NCBI GenBank assembly: GCA_026120035.1
Contig: JALRME010000011.1
Location: forward strand, 434,001 to 498,000
Direction of reading: 5' to 3'
DNA from: Coleophoma eucalyptorum
Taxonomy: Eukaryota > Ascomycota > Leotiomycetes > Helotiales > Dermateaceae
DNA length: 64,000 nt
Below are positions 20,893 to 28,221 of the stretch, piece by piece (the first letter of the stretch is position 1; the number at the start of each line of letters is the position of its first letter). A program made the position numbers and the translations under genes. Below the pieces are notes generated by a model. It had not been told where the DNA came from, did not search any database, and saw only the letters and a program-made list of their open reading frames with translations.

Positions 20893-21599
20893 AGAGATGT
20901 AGAGACTAGAAGGGTACTTTTGGTCCAAATACTAGTAACCAATAAGCTCCACAAGCCGACCAACTCCGGGTCGAGTCCTGGACGGAGTAAATATGATTCA
21001 ATGGGAGAAGTATATTATAGCTATTTCAATTCGTTTCCTCACTTCCTGTGTGTTTATCCTCATCATTGTTCTATGTCATCTAAGATATGATAGCAGATAT
21101 GTTTGTCCGACATAAAATCAAATTCACTTTCCGATAGTATACTTGGTTGCTAGAATACCCTTTGGATCTTTTCCTTTCTTTTCAAAACATTTACTCGTAT
21201 TAAAGGTACAAAAGTGAAATATTAGGCTGTTACCCCCCCCTCCCCCTTTTACCTTTAAAAGAAACATATTTAGCGAACCGAAGCGGGCACTTAGCTAGGC
21301 GATCTAGCCTAGCGAACAGAACATAGAGATTTCAAGGCCAACAACAACAGAAAAGGTCTCTTGAACCGATTGTACATACCTCTACGTTAGAAATAGATTA
21401 TAATCCAATAGTTATTATTTAGAATATACCATTTAAAGTCTACAAAATATGATCACAGGAAAGGGGGAATTGTAGCGTTTGTCGCTAAGTAGCCGACAGT
21501 CACACTAGATAGAAAACACAAGGGGGGGAAAAGGTAATTCCCAACACAATCATTCTGAACAAAAAAAAGAGAAAAAAAGAAATTGAAGAATCGTTATGA
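20893..21599. other. Intergenic region with a short palindrome
   Basis: No gene is seen. A perfect 7-bp inverted repeat (GCTAGGC / GCCTAGC, 6-nt loop) lies at 21294-21313. C-rich and G-rich runs lie near 21233 and 21525. A 17-bp block at 21198-21214 is repeated exactly at 11411-11427. This may be eroded mobile DNA, but no element can be delimited. Confidence 0.4.
21561..21578 (-). terminator. RNA polymerase III terminator for tRNA-Asn
   Basis: Read on the minus strand, T7 (21578-21572) and T8 (21568-21561) follow the tRNA 3' end by about 21 nt. A T-run is the expected Pol III stop signal. Confidence 0.75.
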
Positions 21600-21737
21600 C
21601 TCCTCCGGGTGGGCTCGAACCACCAACCTCTCGATTGCATGTGTAATAACAGTCGAACTGTAATGAATTAGAATGTGATATTCAGTTGCTGAATGATGAT
21701 GAGTGCTTACCGCGCTAGCCAATTGCGCCACGGAGGA
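21600..21737 (-). tRNA. tRNA-Asn(GUU) with a canonical intron and a second insertion
   Basis: The cloverleaf is read on the minus strand. Acceptor stem TCCTCCG/CGGAGGA is fully paired, with discriminator G as usual for tRNA-Asn. The D stem is GCGC/GCGC, the T stem GGTGG/CCACC, and the T loop TTCGAGC. The anticodon arm TTCGA/TCGAG encloses C-T-GTT-A-A, with anticodon GTT at 21650-21648. An 11-nt intron (21646-21636) sits at the canonical 37/38 site; its third-last base is G and can pair with C32, the expected anticodon-intron pair. A second insertion of 53 nt (21710-21658) separates position 26 from 27. With both removed the tRNA is 74 nt. The A box (TGGCGCAATTGG) and B box (GGTTCGAGCCC) are intact, and the insertion lies between them. 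Confidence 0.93.
21658..21710 (-). other. 53-nt spliceosomal-intron-like insertion inside tRNA-Asn
   Basis: The insert starts GTAAGC, ends TTACAG and contains CTAAT about 10 nt before the end. Those are the donor, acceptor and branch-site forms seen in this window's protein-gene introns, and 53 nt is a typical length. It also holds a perfect hairpin ATTCAG-CAA-CTGAAT (21694-21680). The position between bases 26 and 27 is not the canonical nuclear tRNA intron site. The boundary can slide by one G. Whether the spliceosome, the tRNA endonuclease or neither removes it is unknown. Confidence 0.75.
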
Positions 21738-22146: not shown

Positions 22147-23505
22147 TCAATTCACGGACGGAGGTTGTTCCCAGTCATGCTCAACCTTCCATGCCTCATC
22201 AGGTTTCAGGCCAATATCAACAATGTCACAATCGCGATGCCCCCACTTCTCCCTATACACACTACGACCAAATTCGATTGTCATCTGGATCCCTTTCTCA
22301 AAGCCCTCAGGATCTCTATAAAAGGGATCGCCAATGCCACCGCCTTGTCTCGCTTGCCAGGTATTTCGTTCCGAGCCGCTGTTTTTAGAGCGTTGCATGG
22401 CATCGCAGGTATCGAAGAGCTGTTTGAAGGCTGGGGAATTGAGAGTATCTTCTTCAAAAGAGTGCAGGGAGCGTGCTTTGATTTCTTCGTCGATGTTTGT
22501 GTTGGACGGCTCTGGTGCATGCGGGTCGATGAATGATGCGATGCTTCCATTCTTGCGGTATAGCACATACAGATCGTCCAAACTGCTTCCAACATCCCAG
22601 ACAAAGCCCGCCTCGCGTTCTTCTTGCGAGTAGCCACCCATGGTAAGTCGCGAGTGCATGTCGCAATCACCCATGTAGAACGGGATATGTGTGTCCCAGC
22701 CCCCTACATCTCGATACGTAGCGGTATTGACTAGTGCCAGCCGGTCATACGCAAAGAATCGAAGTGCCCACGGAGGAGTTTCAGGTCTAAAAACTGCCCT
22801 CAATTCCGTTAGAGCTCGTTGGTAAAGTGGTATGAAGGGCTCGCGATCTTCATATGAGGCAGCGACGACGTCCATGTGACTCCAAAAGTAAGCCGGGTAT
22901 TTCTCTTGGATAGCATTCCATAGATAGAAATTCTGTAGCTGTGCAAACGTGAAGAGTGTTGGAGTAATGAGCACGTTTACACCTAGCATATGTAATCGTG
23001 TGTGATTGAGAAAGAAGGGGTTCTGGAGTGACAGCAATCCTTGCTTATTTGAATCCATGACTCCTGTGTTCTCTACCACGTATATATCCTCCGGTGGCCA
23101 TCCTGCTGTGATGTAGCTTACAACAGCTTGCTGAATCAGGCGCCAATTGCGAGTAAAGCCAATAAAGAGCGGCGTCCTTTCTTGCACGTGTGGACTTGGT
23201 GGTTTGTTCCAGGATGGAATTGATGGTAGATCGGCTGCTGAATGTGCAGCAGCAGCTAAGGGGAAATTGTCGACAATAGGTGGATTCTTCGATATGGTGA
23301 TATTCTTCATAGGAGGATGCCTTGACTTTGGCAAGTTATGCTCGGTGGCGAAATGTTCGGGATGAGGGGCTGGAGACGCGATGCCTGTTAAATTTATACC
23401 TCTATGAAGATGATAGAGCGTAAAGAGTAGAGGAAGACATAGTAATGTAATAAAGAGTGGCCGTTGGCGGGCGTATATCATCCTGGCTGATGGTAGTGCT
23501 AACAT
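22147..23505 (-). CDS. Type II membrane protein, possibly a Golgi glycosyltransferase-like protein
   Basis: Single exon of 452 residues. A short N-terminal cytosolic part with basic residues is followed by one hydrophobic helix (about residues 16-34, PLFITLLCLPLLFTLYHLH) and a long lumenal domain, the layout of Golgi type II enzymes. The region before residue 110 is low-complexity. The globular part starts with PLFIGFTRNWRLIQQAVVSY, then YVVENTG, then WSHMDVVA, which looks like a GT-A nucleotide-binding fold with an acidic metal-ligand candidate. A later GDCDMHSRL block fits an acceptor-site loop. I do not recognise the exact family, so glycosyltransferase is an inference. NIT and NHT sequons fit a lumenal location. 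Confidence 0.7.
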   Translation of the reverse strand: MLALPSARMIYARQRPLFITLLCLPLLFTLYHLHRGINLTGIASPAPHPEHFATEHNLPKSRHPPMKNITISKNPPIVDNFPLAAAAHSAADLPSIPSWNKPPSPHVQERTPLFIGFTRNWRLIQQAVVSYITAGWPPEDIYVVENTGVMDSNKQGLLSLQNPFFLNHTRLHMLGVNVLITPTLFTFAQLQNFYLWNAIQEKYPAYFWSHMDVVAASYEDREPFIPLYQRALTELRAVFRPETPPWALRFFAYDRLALVNTATYRDVGGWDTHIPFYMGDCDMHSRLTMGGYSQEEREAGFVWDVGSSLDDLYVLYRKNGSIASFIDPHAPEPSNTNIDEEIKARSLHSFEEDTLNSPAFKQLFDTCDAMQRSKNSGSERNTWQARQGGGIGDPFYRDPEGFEKGIQMTIEFGRSVYREKWGHRDCDIVDIGLKPDEAWKVEHDWEQPPSVN

Positions 23506-25105
23506 ATTGGACGATCAAGGCGCATGAGGAGCTCGCGATCATCCAAGCTCGATAGGAAGCGTGATATACAGAGCAAGCAAGCCGAATAGTAGTAGAATGG
23601 CGGGGGGATTCAAAGTTCTTTGCTCCGGAGTACCTAGAGGCAAAGGCGCACACTTGGTTGCAGCACAGCAATTGGCCAAGGCCGCACCAGCAAGAAGGGG
23701 TGATCGACTTGGAAGGCTATCTCACGAGCATAGAGGAGATATCCAAATAGCGCGTGATTAGCAATACAGCGTCGAAATAACTGGCAAAAATAGCAAATTG
23801 CTCTCAAAGAGGTCGAACGAAACAACGACGATGGCAGAAAGAAGATAGAACCAAAAGAAGAAGAAGGGCAAACTGGAGCAAGGTAAGTGCAGCCTACCCT
23901 AGGTGACGTCCCAGGGGGAGAACTAGACCAATCCATACACTACCTTCGGACATACCCAACGCTCACTAAGAGAAAATTGCCTTATCTGGGAACCTGAGAC
24001 TTGACATTGACAGAACTTAACTGGAGCCCGGACAGTCATCACACTTCCAAGGCAACAGCAGGAGCACAAAGGCAATGCAGAGCACTACGCCGCACGAAGA
24101 CCCCCGGCGGGAAAGCACACGCTCTTATGACCATGCGCAGCAGTCAGAGGGTCATTCTCAATGTCATCGTGATGGACGATAAAAGGCTGGTCCTGTCTGC
24201 CCTGGTAGATTTGCACACAGAGATGACGAGTCAGAAGAAGCAGAGTGAAGCAGGTTCAACGTCAGCAGCAGCCAAATCAGACGAAATCAAACAACAATCA
24301 AGATCTGTTTTGTCGGTGGAAAGTGATGCAGCACACGGATGACGACACGACCCAACTAGCTCATGTTTGTCAAAGAGGGTCTCTGCGTTGGCGCTGGCGA
24401 ATCCACTCCATCTGGCAAGCCGGCATCCAAGGTCGTGATAAAAGAGGCAAAGAGGGAGTCCGCCCAAAGCAAGATGGGGCATGAAACATCAGACCGGCCA
24501 AAAATTCACCCATGCCAGCAAACATACAGTGCGTCGGCGACGGAGAGAGTATCGTGAAGCTTCACCATGCACAGCCACTTGCTCAGTTTCTGTTGCTCGC
24601 GAGAAGACACAACGCATCTACCCCTGGAATGGCTATGTCTCCTTAGTCCGCAGTATGTACTGTGCCTCTTATTCTGGAGATGCTGTTGTCGGATACGGAG
24701 ATGGAATAGGTTAAAGGACGGTTACAGGGCTACATGAAGAAGCAATAAGCTTGATTTCTGGGTTTTCGAGGCACAGAATACGAGGGGCGGTTGAGGTAAC
24801 GGGCATTCAATTGGTTGGCCCGGGTTGAAGATCTCGGGTGCTCTAACCTAAACCCCAGCCGATCGCTCAGCCTTGTCTCCATTTTGTAGCCGCCATATCT
24901 GCTTTTTGAGCTTTTCTCCACCGCGCAGGCACAGTAGAAGCCCTAAACAGGCAGCCAACTCGTATAGCAGGGACACCGGTGTAATTTGTACCTTCGTATC
25001 CGCATACTTGACTGCATCTCAGGCCATTTACAGGACAAGGAAGATAAGCTTTTCGTAAATCAAGTAACTTACCTTAAATCTAATCTCTAAGTACTGGGCT
25101 CCGGC
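23506..25105. other. Intergenic region, no supported gene
   Basis: This holds the promoter of the leftward membrane-protein gene (left) and the 3' flank of the Ntr1-like gene (right). Several frames of 60-110 codons are open on both strands between 24000 and 24700, but none has a recognisable domain. Confidence 0.5.
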
Positions 25106-27820
25106 TTACTTTACATTAGTCCATGCCATACCTAGTAACACATCCCGAGCATCAGCATTCTCCCAATCAATTTTGATTTCCATCTGTTCTTGACCCTTCT
25201 TGGAGAGCGCAATCAAGCTATCTCCCTTGAAATAGACTAGTGTTCCATTCTTCCCGTGTCCGGCGGCTGTCAATCTGAACAAAGGTCCAGCAGCATGCAG
25301 CACCTTCTTCTCAGGCAAGAATTGAAGTTCGTTCTCGATGCACCAGTCCTCGACTTTGTGTCTGAACGTATACTCCTCCGCAACGGGTGCAGCAACTGGT
25401 ACCGTTGGTACTGGAGGGGGTGAAGGCTTTGCGCGTGGAATTTCGCTTTCGCGAATTGGTGCCGGCAGATGAGTTGCAGCCTTGGAGCCGAGGTCAAGCG
25501 CTGTATTGATCATCTCATGACCCTTTTCAAACTCCTTCTCAATCAACTGCAGGTGTTTGATCTCGGCCGGGAAGACTTCATCCCTCCACCATTCAAACCA
25601 TTGACCGATTTCCTGGTTTGGACCAACCACGGTAAGCCACTGATGGAGCACATTATGCCACATGGGAAAGACTGTCTCAACAATGACTTGCCCTATGATA
25701 CGTGCTTTCAAGATATCTTTCCATGCAAATACGCCTTGTAATGCAGACATGAATGGTGCCTGATCGTTAGGGTCGACCTGGAAGTTCTTTGGATCTTTCA
25801 AGAACTTTGCCATACCTGGCAGAACATGGTTCATGATTAATGGAGTCCACTGATCATTGCTTGAATTAACGCAAAGTACCTCACGCCATTGTTCCAGACC
25901 AGGAATAACACCGCGATGAAAATCCCAAACATCAATGAGCTTTCGAAATTTCCTCTTGATGTCGCTAACAAGCCCCACTGAAGCTCTGGGATCGGCGTGG
26001 TGGGCAGGGAGATATTGAAGCCATGGAAATAGCCATAGGTGTGGAAGCTCATTGTGACGCTTCTTCCTAGGTTCCCACGAGGATACAGCATCATCAAGCT
26101 TGCCAACAATTGCCTGGAGCAGCTGAGATCGAACAAAGTCAGGAAGCAGTTCTTCCCAAGCCTCCAAGAGTGCTAGCATCTGGGATGGTTTGTATGCATT
26201 CCAATTCGGTATTGAGGAGATGATTTTGGGGAATATAATTTTATAAATCATGGTCTCATAAGGTGTCGTAGATTTTCCACGGCCTCGGACGCCGTGCATT
26301 GAGAAAGCATCGTGAGTGACGGTGTCAGATTTATTGGGAACTGCCCCAATGATACGTCGAATGCTGTGCAAGGTCGGTGCCATGCCATTAAGTTTGGGAT
26401 CATCCAATGGTTGCCAACCTTCAACAGCTTGTCGCAGGAAAGGATGGACTGCAGCAACAGCGATAGCCGATAGATCATCATTTGTATCCGACAATTCCAG
26501 ACTTTCTACATCCTTTAGAAGCTTGACAATAGGGTCCCACTGACCATCCGAAGAAGCCTGTGACAATCCTTGGACACTTGTAGCAAAAGTTTTAAATTGA
26601 TTGAGCTCATTTTGTTCCTGATCCAGTGCTTTCTGTTCCTGGCGTAATTGCTCGTCTATCCATTGCTTCCGTTCTTGTAGATTGATCCATTGCTGCCCAA
26701 AAGAGTCAATCTCTCTTTGTGCTCGCAATGCCAATTTCATACGTTGCTTGTGTTCCTTTTGCTCGATTGTTTCCGTGCTTGGTGTTGACGGAGCCGACAA
26801 TCCAGCTGTAGAGGTCAAAAGTTTTCGTTCGGGACCAGTCATGTCCAGAATCGAGGTATAAGACTCCGGTATATGCAATCCAGGAGCTGACTTTTTGACT
26901 TCCTCCAAAGTCTGGAATTTGGGTTTTGGAGCTCGTCTTGGTGTGCTCATCCCACTGCTAGCCCCGCTGCCTTTGGGCTTACTGCGACGAGCCTTCTTGC
27001 GTTCCTCATCTGAGTCCTCATACGTTACGCCTTTTAACTTAGCCTGCCGCTTTTCTTCTTCCTTCTCTTGCTGCGATTTCTCTCTTACAGCACCAATACC
27101 CACACCTTGTGGACGTAGTTTAACTTCAATTGGTGCAGCTCGACCTTGCCCTTCTTTGCCCAGGCCTTGACCTTGTTTGTAACCCATCTTCGCCATCTGC
27201 CTCTCAGCAAAAGAAAGTCCTTTAGGAGTCCCTTTCTGAGGGGTTTCGAACGCGCTTCGCTGTGGCACCCTGGGAGTTGCTGGCTTATCGTCATCAAAAT
27301 CGCGTAATATAGGAACACCTGCAGATGTTGGGACAAATCCGCGTCCAAGAGGAGTGCCAAAACTTGACGCTTGCTTCTTCTGCTTCGATGGAGCTGGACT
27401 TTGAAAGCCTAAACCTCTCGCGCCCAACCCGAGACCTCCATGGGGAGCCTCGGCCTCTTCCTCTTCCTCCTCTTCGTCCTCTCCAGTGTTCATATCGACA
27501 TCTTGATCAACCTCGTCGGCTTCCTCCTCAGAATCAGCTTCTTCCATCTGCTTCTGCCCCGTGCTTATGAATGCCATTCCCTTGCCACGCAAGTTCTTTT
27601 TCTTCCACTTCTTTCCTGGCCCCTCATCTTCACTCTCCGACCCAAATATACCAAGTGCTGCGCTCTCCTTAGCATCGCGTCCGGTGCGCCTCCTCTTGCG
27701 GGGATTATAGTCGGCGAACTCATCTGCATTCGGATCCGTTGATGGGTGTAGAAAATCATCGTTATCCGAGTCCGAATCCTCAGATGATGAGCCTTGAGCA
27801 AAGGCGTACATTGAAGACAT
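25106..27820 (-). CDS. G-patch spliceosome-disassembly factor (Ntr1/Spp382/TFIP11 family)
   Basis: This factor works with the DEAH helicase Prp43 to take apart the intron-lariat spliceosome. It is a single exon of 904 residues. The N-terminus is acidic and disordered, with basic patches (PRKRRR, KKWKKKNLRGK) typical of this family. The G-patch lies near residues 205-245, with SFAERQMAKMGYKQGQGLGK followed by the rest of the glycine pattern (GQGRAAPIEVKLRPQGVGIG). A coiled-coil stretch rich in Glu/Gln covers about residues 355-410. The large C-terminal part matches the GC-rich-factor-like (GCFC) helical domain, including LPHLWLFPWLQYLP. The Gly-spaced G-patch is the partner site for Prp43. The ATG at 27820 is the first of the frame. 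Confidence 0.9.
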   Translation of the reverse strand: MSSMYAFAQGSSSEDSDSDNDDFLHPSTDPNADEFADYNPRKRRRTGRDAKESAALGIFGSESEDEGPGKKWKKKNLRGKGMAFISTGQKQMEEADSEEEADEVDQDVDMNTGEDEEEEEEEAEAPHGGLGLGARGLGFQSPAPSKQKKQASSFGTPLGRGFVPTSAGVPILRDFDDDKPATPRVPQRSAFETPQKGTPKGLSFAERQMAKMGYKQGQGLGKEGQGRAAPIEVKLRPQGVGIGAVREKSQQEKEEEKRQAKLKGVTYEDSDEERKKARRSKPKGSGASSGMSTPRRAPKPKFQTLEEVKKSAPGLHIPESYTSILDMTGPERKLLTSTAGLSAPSTPSTETIEQKEHKQRMKLALRAQREIDSFGQQWINLQERKQWIDEQLRQEQKALDQEQNELNQFKTFATSVQGLSQASSDGQWDPIVKLLKDVESLELSDTNDDLSAIAVAAVHPFLRQAVEGWQPLDDPKLNGMAPTLHSIRRIIGAVPNKSDTVTHDAFSMHGVRGRGKSTTPYETMIYKIIFPKIISSIPNWNAYKPSQMLALLEAWEELLPDFVRSQLLQAIVGKLDDAVSSWEPRKKRHNELPHLWLFPWLQYLPAHHADPRASVGLVSDIKRKFRKLIDVWDFHRGVIPGLEQWREVLCVNSSNDQWTPLIMNHVLPGMAKFLKDPKNFQVDPNDQAPFMSALQGVFAWKDILKARIIGQVIVETVFPMWHNVLHQWLTVVGPNQEIGQWFEWWRDEVFPAEIKHLQLIEKEFEKGHEMINTALDLGSKAATHLPAPIRESEIPRAKPSPPPVPTVPVAAPVAEEYTFRHKVEDWCIENELQFLPEKKVLHAAGPLFRLTAAGHGKNGTLVYFKGDSLIALSKKGQEQMEIKIDWENADARDVLLGMAWTNVK

Positions 27821-28221
27821 GATGGTGGTTTAGGAGCCTAACTTTGTTTTAGAAGGCTGCTTGACGACGAAATTGAGGAGCCTTATCTTATGTAAGCCGG
27901 CAATGACATTTTTGTCAGCCTTGCTGCAAGGCTTTCTGAAGCACATGCCGGTCTTTGATGAGAACAAAATATTTTTGTTGTGCAACGTTGGAAATAGTGT
28001 TTGTTGGTCTACTTGATTGTTGAAAGTCTATGGTTGATTACTATCTCACGCTCAAACTCCTCACTACAGAGTGGTCTTCCTTATACACATGCTAAGCATA
28101 ACGTCGTGATATGTTCGTAGCCAACCTATAGCCAGCACCTCAAATATTGAAGTGCAATAGCAAAACTCCTCGAACGCCCCACTGGCAAAGAGCCGAGCCA
28201 AGCCGTCTTCCCATGCAAGAA
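27821..28221. other. Intergenic region between Ntr1-like gene and PAC1
   Basis: About 400 bp comprising the promoter of the Ntr1-like gene and the 3' flank of the leftward PAC1 gene. No gene is seen. Confidence 0.5.

Follow-up and report, generated by a model that had tools for sequence, protein, structure and literature searches.

mRNA-type introns occur in the U6 snRNA genes of fission yeast and other fungi and are thought, in the account given in PMC10484740, to have originated by reverse splicing. Fungal U3 snoRNA genes also carry spliceosomal introns, which according to PMC5832005 lie mostly near the 5′ end and have ordinary splice signals. With these fungal introns there is a precedent for a Pol III transcript losing an intron to the spliceosome. 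For tRNA genes, the paper describing tRNAscan-SE 2.0 gives a limit of one intron in eukaryotes (PMC8450103), and a 2014 review (PMC4090602) calls non-canonical eukaryotic tRNA introns rare. The same review describes tRNA introns outside position 37/38 in Cyanidioschyzon merolae and nucleomorphs, with two or three introns in some genes.

The locus considered here is a tRNA-Asn(GUU) gene on the minus strand of the window, which is the whole stretch of 64,000 nucleotides that was analysed (434001-498000 of contig C4; the genome searched comprises 45.26 Mb in 101 contigs). A protein encoded in the window is 94% identical over 85% of its length to a Coleophoma cylindrospora protein and 73% identical to one from Phlyctema vagabunda; the fungus is therefore probably a leotiomycete near Coleophoma (Helotiales, Dermateaceae). 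The tRNA gene carries an insert between tRNA positions 26 and 27. Like the U6 introns, this insert is of mRNA type, with GT, branch and AG, and lies in the gene for a short Pol III RNA; U6 differs in that it belongs to the spliceosome and is interrupted close to its catalytic site, whereas the interrupted RNA here, a tRNA, has an internal promoter and the inserts occur in several families. The U3 introns (Canzler et al. 2017) are similar in that they interrupt a structured non-coding RNA and have ordinary splice signals, but U3 is a snoRNA, and even paralogues are described there as differing in whether they have the intron; here every one of the five tRNA-Asn copies found carries the insert. 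The introns of C. merolae and nucleomorphs are described in the review as linked to a bulge-helix-bulge or of unknown mode, and can be as short as 3 nt; here the inserts are about 54 nt long, have splice-site and branch signals, and show no bulge-helix-bulge at 26/27. Compared with canonical 37/38 introns they are at another position, are longer, and lack an outer helix at the junction.

The interrupted tRNA-Asn genes

The features of the window gene are as follows, with the evidence in brackets.

21600..21737, minus strand: tRNA-Asn(GUU) gene, three exons, 138 bases (sequence and ARAGORN)
21711..21737, minus strand: exon 1, tRNA positions 1-26 (sequence and ARAGORN)
21719..21730, minus strand: presumed A box, in exon 1 (placed by inspection against the consensus)
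21658..21710, minus strand: 53-nt spliceosomal-type intron at 26/27 (sequence, ARAGORN, intron matrix and alignment of copies)
21705..21710, minus strand: 5′ splice site GTAAGC (identical hexamer in 4/26 mRNA introns)
21667..21671, minus strand: branch-site motif CTAAT, stopping 9 nt short of the intron's 3′ end (intron matrix)
21658..21660, minus strand: 3′ splice site CAG (CAG in 12/26 mRNA introns)
21647..21657, minus strand: exon 2, positions 27-37, anticodon GTT (sequence and ARAGORN)
21636..21646, minus strand: 11-nt canonical intron TTACACATGCA at 37/38, in which the G at -3 pairs with C32
21600..21635, minus strand: exon 3, positions 38-73, with G73 at 21600 (sequence and ARAGORN)
21612..21621, minus strand: presumed B box, in exon 3 (placed by inspection against the consensus)
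21572..21578, minus strand: likely Pol III terminator, seven T, 22 nt 3′ of the gene

The 53-nt insert (21710-21658, minus strand) starts with GTAAGC and ends with CTAATTCATTACAG. An earlier note on this DNA had described a minus-strand cloverleaf that appears after removal of two inserts, one a canonical 11-nt intron with a C32-G pair and the other resembling a spliceosomal intron, with GTAAGC at its start and CTAAT near its end. This is borne out: with both inserts deleted ARAGORN calls a 74-nt tRNA-Asn(gtt), C32 does face the G at -3, and the 53-nt insert is exactly as described. Given the unspliced genomic sequence of the gene, ARAGORN with default settings calls no tRNA, and when introns are allowed it reports the wrong anticodon (att). 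Sliding the 26/27 junction by one base to 25/26 leaves the product unchanged; GT..AG is obtained only at 26/27. Rfam scans of the window did not list a tRNA at 21600-21737, and their matches to preQ1-II, NsiR4 and mir-297 were under the family cut-offs and were taken as chance.

A count of tRNA-Asn(GUU) genes, which the note had proposed, gave five nuclear copies including that of the window.

C4 455600-455737: the window gene, insert at 26/27 and 11-nt intron at 37/38
C32 302338-302465: insert at 26/27, without a 37/38 intron
C35 1136252-1136378 (first C35 copy): insert at 26/27, without a 37/38 intron
C35 1137368-1137506 (second C35 copy): insert at 26/27 and 11-nt intron at 37/38
C46 146065-146192: insert at 26/27, without a 37/38 intron

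In all five the insert lies at the identical base and is 53 or 54 nt long. The joined exons are called as tRNA-Asn(gtt) by ARAGORN in every copy, and G73 is found in each by inspection. Since they sit at 26/27 and not at 37/38, the long inserts are not canonical nuclear tRNA introns. The 11-nt introns of the window gene and the second C35 copy do belong to that class, by their position at 37/38 and by having C32 opposite G at -3 in both carriers. Two early searches for Asn genes did not pick up the three copies that lack an intron at 37/38. The first of these was found by ARAGORN allowing introns, and the others with a D-arm pattern (up to three mismatches), which matched the genome 13 times (control 2), its five exact matches being the tRNA-Asn genes. 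A joined-exon DNA query aligned to these copies with no 37/38 intron in two blocks (27-74 and 4/5-27), the break falling at an identical base in all three.

Comparison of the inserts with mRNA introns

As a reference, 26 mRNA introns were obtained by spliced protein alignment from four tubulin-like genes and a G-alpha gene, five of the 26 coming from one weak alignment (C18, score 591). They are 45-135 nt long with a median of 54, and the resemblance in length remarked on in the earlier note holds, both for the 53-nt window insert and for the tRNA-Asn inserts together (53-54 nt). Their 5′ sites are GTAAGT (7), GTAAGC (4), GTACGT (3), GTATGT (2) and ten others, and their 3′ sites are TAG (13), CAG (12) and AAG (1). 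The best branch motif, selected by likeness to CTRAY, is CTRAY in 23/26 and ends 7-21 nt before the 3′ end. Among the five tRNA-Asn inserts the 5′ site is GTAAGC in four and GTATGT in one, both of which occur in the reference set; the branch motif is CTAAT in four and CTAAG in one, and stops 9 or 11 nt short of the 3′ end; and the 3′ site is CAG in all. The CTAAG belongs to the C46 insert, and a branch motif ending in G occurs in 0/26 of the mRNA introns, the motifs of which were chosen by their likeness to CTRAY.

Matrix scores are 20.3 for the window insert, 17.9 for the second C35 copy, 21.4 for the first C35 copy, 21.5 for C32 and 17.2 for C46, compared with 14.6-23.8 for the mRNA introns. 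These scores are reached by 2, 2, 1, 1 and 4, respectively, of 127,892 54-nt segments of the window, and each by 0/20,000 mononucleotide shuffles. The window contains seven GT..AG segments of 53-54 nt that score at least 17.2, one of which is the tRNA-Asn insert; by inspection, five of the other six are located where a long open frame on their strand ends, which is the position expected of genuine mRNA introns.

When the five inserts are aligned, 11/14 signal columns are invariant, compared with 10/42 of the remaining columns (p 4e-4). At sites other than the signals, inserts from genes with and without a 37/38 intron agree at 17-19 of 38-39 sites, and those of the window gene and the second C35 copy at 22/38. 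With the signals largely invariant and the rest diverged, the insertion is taken to be old, and the part that has been kept is what the spliceosome reads. The five copies share descent, and therefore count as one insertion kept through duplications.

Inserts of this kind are also present in other genes. A tRNA family search listed 63 matches, of which 61 are full-length and two lack the start of the model. Both of the partial matches, C11 590345-590402 (model 9-63) and C9 112468-112550 (model 8-63), hold an mRNA-like insert. The corresponding genes, together with a U6 gene, are listed here.

C11 590283-590410: tRNA-Lys(UUU), 54-nt insert at 9/10, without an anticodon-loop intron
C9 112460-112614, minus strand: probable tRNA-Leu(UAG), 57-nt insert at 7/8 and 19-nt anticodon-loop intron
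C33 149600-149930: U6 gene, 54-nt spliceosomal-type intron at 149694-149747, between ACGATAC and AGAGAAG

The tRNA-Lys insert (GTAAGC...TACTAAC...ATCAG) has a matrix score of 22.7. After its deletion the gene is identical at every base to the tRNA-Lys(UUU) of C9 (367761 on) less the 10-nt anticodon-loop intron of the latter. That C9 gene, the second of the two tRNA-Lys(UUU) genes seen, in which there is no insert at 9/10 and the anticodon-loop intron is the only one, is taken as the empty site because of this exact match. The tRNA-Leu insert (GTAAGT...ACTAAC...ACTAG) scores 22.3, and once it and the 19-nt anticodon-loop intron are taken out, ARAGORN reports tRNA-Leu(tag), whose acceptor stem contains two G-U pairs. 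ARAGORN is permissive in such tests, calling some tRNA after 275/3240 deletions near the Lys insert and 68/3240 near the Leu insert, of which one and three, respectively, are of GT..AG type. The Lys case therefore rests on its paralogue, and the C9 locus 112460-112614 is described as probably a tRNA-Leu(UAG) with a spliceosomal-type insert at 7/8. A removal scan of 1408 intron-like segments, covering the window and all loci retrieved (overlapping), gave 35 rows in which a tRNA was called. The five Asn genes account for 26, Lys for two and Leu for two; the remaining five are trivial and were discarded, since they come from a tRNA-Thr and a mitochondrial tRNA-Pro in which nothing needs to be removed. 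Three positions in three tRNA families make a single chance insertion unlikely. Judged by 5′ site, branch motif at the usual distance, YAG and length, the five tRNA-Asn inserts would be classed as U2-type introns.

The U6 insert (GTAAGT...CTAAC...ACACAG, matrix score 22.3) adjoins the ACAGAGA box. In the U6 family search 47/3141 candidates were scored, and among these the C33 gene is the one match over the family cut-off. High-confidence alignment to the Rfam U6 model starts only at AGAGAAG, and with the exons joined the score of a local alignment against the consensus of the family rises from 100 to 124. Neither the U6 gene nor any of the five tRNA-Asn genes has a run of four T in its spliceosomal-type insert; TTTT is present in the Leu insert, and such runs are found in 8/26 mRNA introns. 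A weak second U6 match (26.2 bits) lies on C64.

A genome pattern consisting of an A box followed by GTAAG gave 14 matches (control 14), four of them tRNA-Asn. The other ten were rejected as tRNAs interrupted at 26/27, since they have no matching acceptor strand; one resembles a tRNA-Cys with an anticodon-loop intron. An A-box-like sequence followed at the 26/27 distance by GTATG was matched eight times (control 3), by one C35 tRNA-Asn and seven others.

Alternative explanations

The earlier note had offered three possibilities for the 53-nt insert: removal by the spliceosome, removal by the tRNA endonuclease, or no removal, in which case the gene would be dead. From the sequence, the first appears the best supported. 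The second would make the insert a non-canonical tRNA intron whose GT..AG look is accidental. Endonuclease-cut introns of this type are reported for red algae, nucleomorphs and archaea, and the non-canonical and multiple introns of C. merolae and nucleomorphs mentioned above (PMC4090602) favour this possibility. Some pairing is also available at the slid 25/26 junction, where two of the three outer pairs are possible in all five copies and the first central pair in four; of the four central pairs, three can form in the window copy, one in each of the two C35 copies, two in C32 and one in C46. However, a complete bulge-helix-bulge, strict or relaxed, is found neither at 26/27 nor at 25/26 in any of the five tRNA-Asn copies, which is the set that the test covered, and at 26/27 the outer helix has 0/3 pairs in all of them. 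As evidence against the endonuclease this test is weak, for the strict motif is not matched by the 37/38 introns either, although those introns retain the outer helix (3/3) and the pair between 32 and -3. What is conserved in the Asn inserts is GT, CTAA and CAG, and not pairing, and like signals mark the inserts at other positions in tRNA-Lys, tRNA-Leu and U6. The earlier note had also pointed to a 6-bp hairpin, ATTCAG..CTGAAT; it is present in the window insert, but is absent from the predicted folds of the other four precursors. The minimum-energy folds of the Asn precursors and of the joined exons are not plain cloverleaves, and were given no weight. We regard cutting of the 26/27 insert by the endonuclease as improbable.

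We consider it very unlikely that the interrupted Asn genes are dead and that the cell is supplied by an uninterrupted tRNA-Asn gene which escaped detection. Such a gene could be overlooked, in that ARAGORN with default settings is blind to the five interrupted genes. The tRNA census is also incomplete: the family search scored 63/1762 candidates, and its listed matches include none of the five. Against this, two joined-exon and four pattern searches of the genome found no uninterrupted nuclear tRNA-Asn. An anticodon-arm pattern (up to three mismatches) gave 12 matches (control 24), comprising the three copies without a 37/38 intron, where CAG precedes the exon, and nine whose matched letters are unlike tRNA-Asn; no uninterrupted tRNA-Asn was recognised among them. 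Nor was an uninterrupted nuclear one among the ten matches (control 12) to a loop-to-T-arm pattern. Three of these are the same copies and one is the mitochondrial tRNA-Asn (C56); a tRNA-Arg gene with an intron in its anticodon loop accounts for another, and in the last five, otherwise unexplained, ARAGORN found no tRNA. A search of viral and prokaryote contigs for the exon-intron junctions gave no match, which is uninformative for fungi. The earlier note had reasoned that an intact, uninterrupted set of tRNA-Asn genes elsewhere would make the window copy a pseudogene; instead, the five nuclear copies found are all interrupted and none is intact.

The exons themselves point the same way. The acceptor stems of the three distinct exon sets are TCCTCCG, TCTCCCG and TCCGCTA, each with its own complement, and the T stem differs as well. 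Over the three variants 63/63 stem cells are paired and 6/21 pairs are altered on both sides, while six slid controls for paired changes gave 0 in all. The first C35, C32 and C46 copies have identical exons (74/74), and their inserts agree at 45/53, 43/53 and 45/54 sites. Paired stem changes, and constant exons beside diverged inserts, are not what decay leaves. A run of T6 or T7 follows each of the five genes, at +5, +5, +5, +14 and +22. Because the joined exons give tRNA-Asn(gtt) and the acceptor and T stems show paired changes, it is concluded, as far as DNA can indicate, that the five genes are maintained and are not dead copies.

Least credible of all is that the inserts are spliced only within longer Pol II transcripts across the tRNA genes, with the tRNAs as by-products: the full mRNA-type signals of the insert would suit this, as would a long open frame with many homologues (22147-23514) some 410 bp upstream of the window gene on the same strand, but the five Asn loci lie on four contigs with the insert at an identical tRNA position, the flanks that can be aligned between gene types end near the gene, and T runs are present 3′ of each gene.

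Proposed processing and significance

We consider it very probable that this genome has spliceosomal introns in Pol III tRNA genes, gained repeatedly, and that its supply of tRNA-Asn is spliceosome-dependent. On this view RNA polymerase III would transcribe five functional nuclear genes for tRNA-Asn(GUU), the window locus among them. Each pre-tRNA would contain a 53-54 nt U2-type spliceosomal intron at 26/27, which the nuclear spliceosome would remove via a lariat. The 11-nt intron at 37/38 that is also present in the window gene and the second C35 copy would be taken out by the tRNA endonuclease and ligase; in the other three copies the spliceosomal intron would be the sole intron. The transcription, the lariat and the order of the two splicing steps are what we infer from the genes as they stand. 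The tRNA-Lys(UUU) gene, at 9/10, and probably that of tRNA-Leu(UAG), at 7/8, would be built alike, which implies that such introns entered the tRNA genes of this lineage more than once. The searches turned up no uninterrupted nuclear tRNA-Asn gene, and the spliceosome would therefore be needed to make cytosolic tRNA-Asn. It is likely that all of it is made via the spliceosome, and partly also via the endonuclease, and that tRNA introns were gained repeatedly (Asn 26/27, Lys 9/10, Leu 7/8).

A literature search, with most subscription papers and all preprints outside its scope, found no earlier description of nuclear tRNA genes with spliceosomal introns. The class of intron is known; as far as was searched, its placement in tRNA genes would be new, as would the reliance of tRNA-Asn on it and what looks like repeated gain. 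If the reading is true, two splicing systems act on one RNA, the spliceosome is able to handle a Pol III tRNA precursor, and translation is tied directly to spliceosome function. The tRNA genes would then form a record of intron gain, for which the tRNA-Lys pair provides a clean setting, with a filled and an empty site in otherwise identical mature sequence. There is also a consequence for annotation. ARAGORN by default misses all five Asn genes, and misnames them when introns are allowed; the family search lists none of them, and gives Lys and Leu only as matches without the model start. Other fungal genomes may conceal tRNAs likewise.

Some further observations were made. About 40 nt upstream, the three Asn copies without a 37/38 intron share GGTTCAGATGG...TTCAAATCCA, which is B-box-like, and flank homology reaches further between pairs of these copies. 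The paralogues of tRNA-Lys CUU and of tRNA-Ser AGA have anticodon-loop introns that differ widely in length and sequence. A tRNA-Ala at C50:145760-145935 is nearly identical to the mitochondrial tRNA-Ala of C56; either it is a nuclear copy of mitochondrial DNA, or C50 is a second mitochondrial contig. Within the window, about 3.4 kb from the tRNA gene, an open frame on the minus strand (25106-27829) has G-patch, TIP_N and GCFC domains, presumably the make-up of the spliceosome-disassembly factor TFIP11/Ntr1; its closeness to the tRNA-Asn gene is probably a coincidence.
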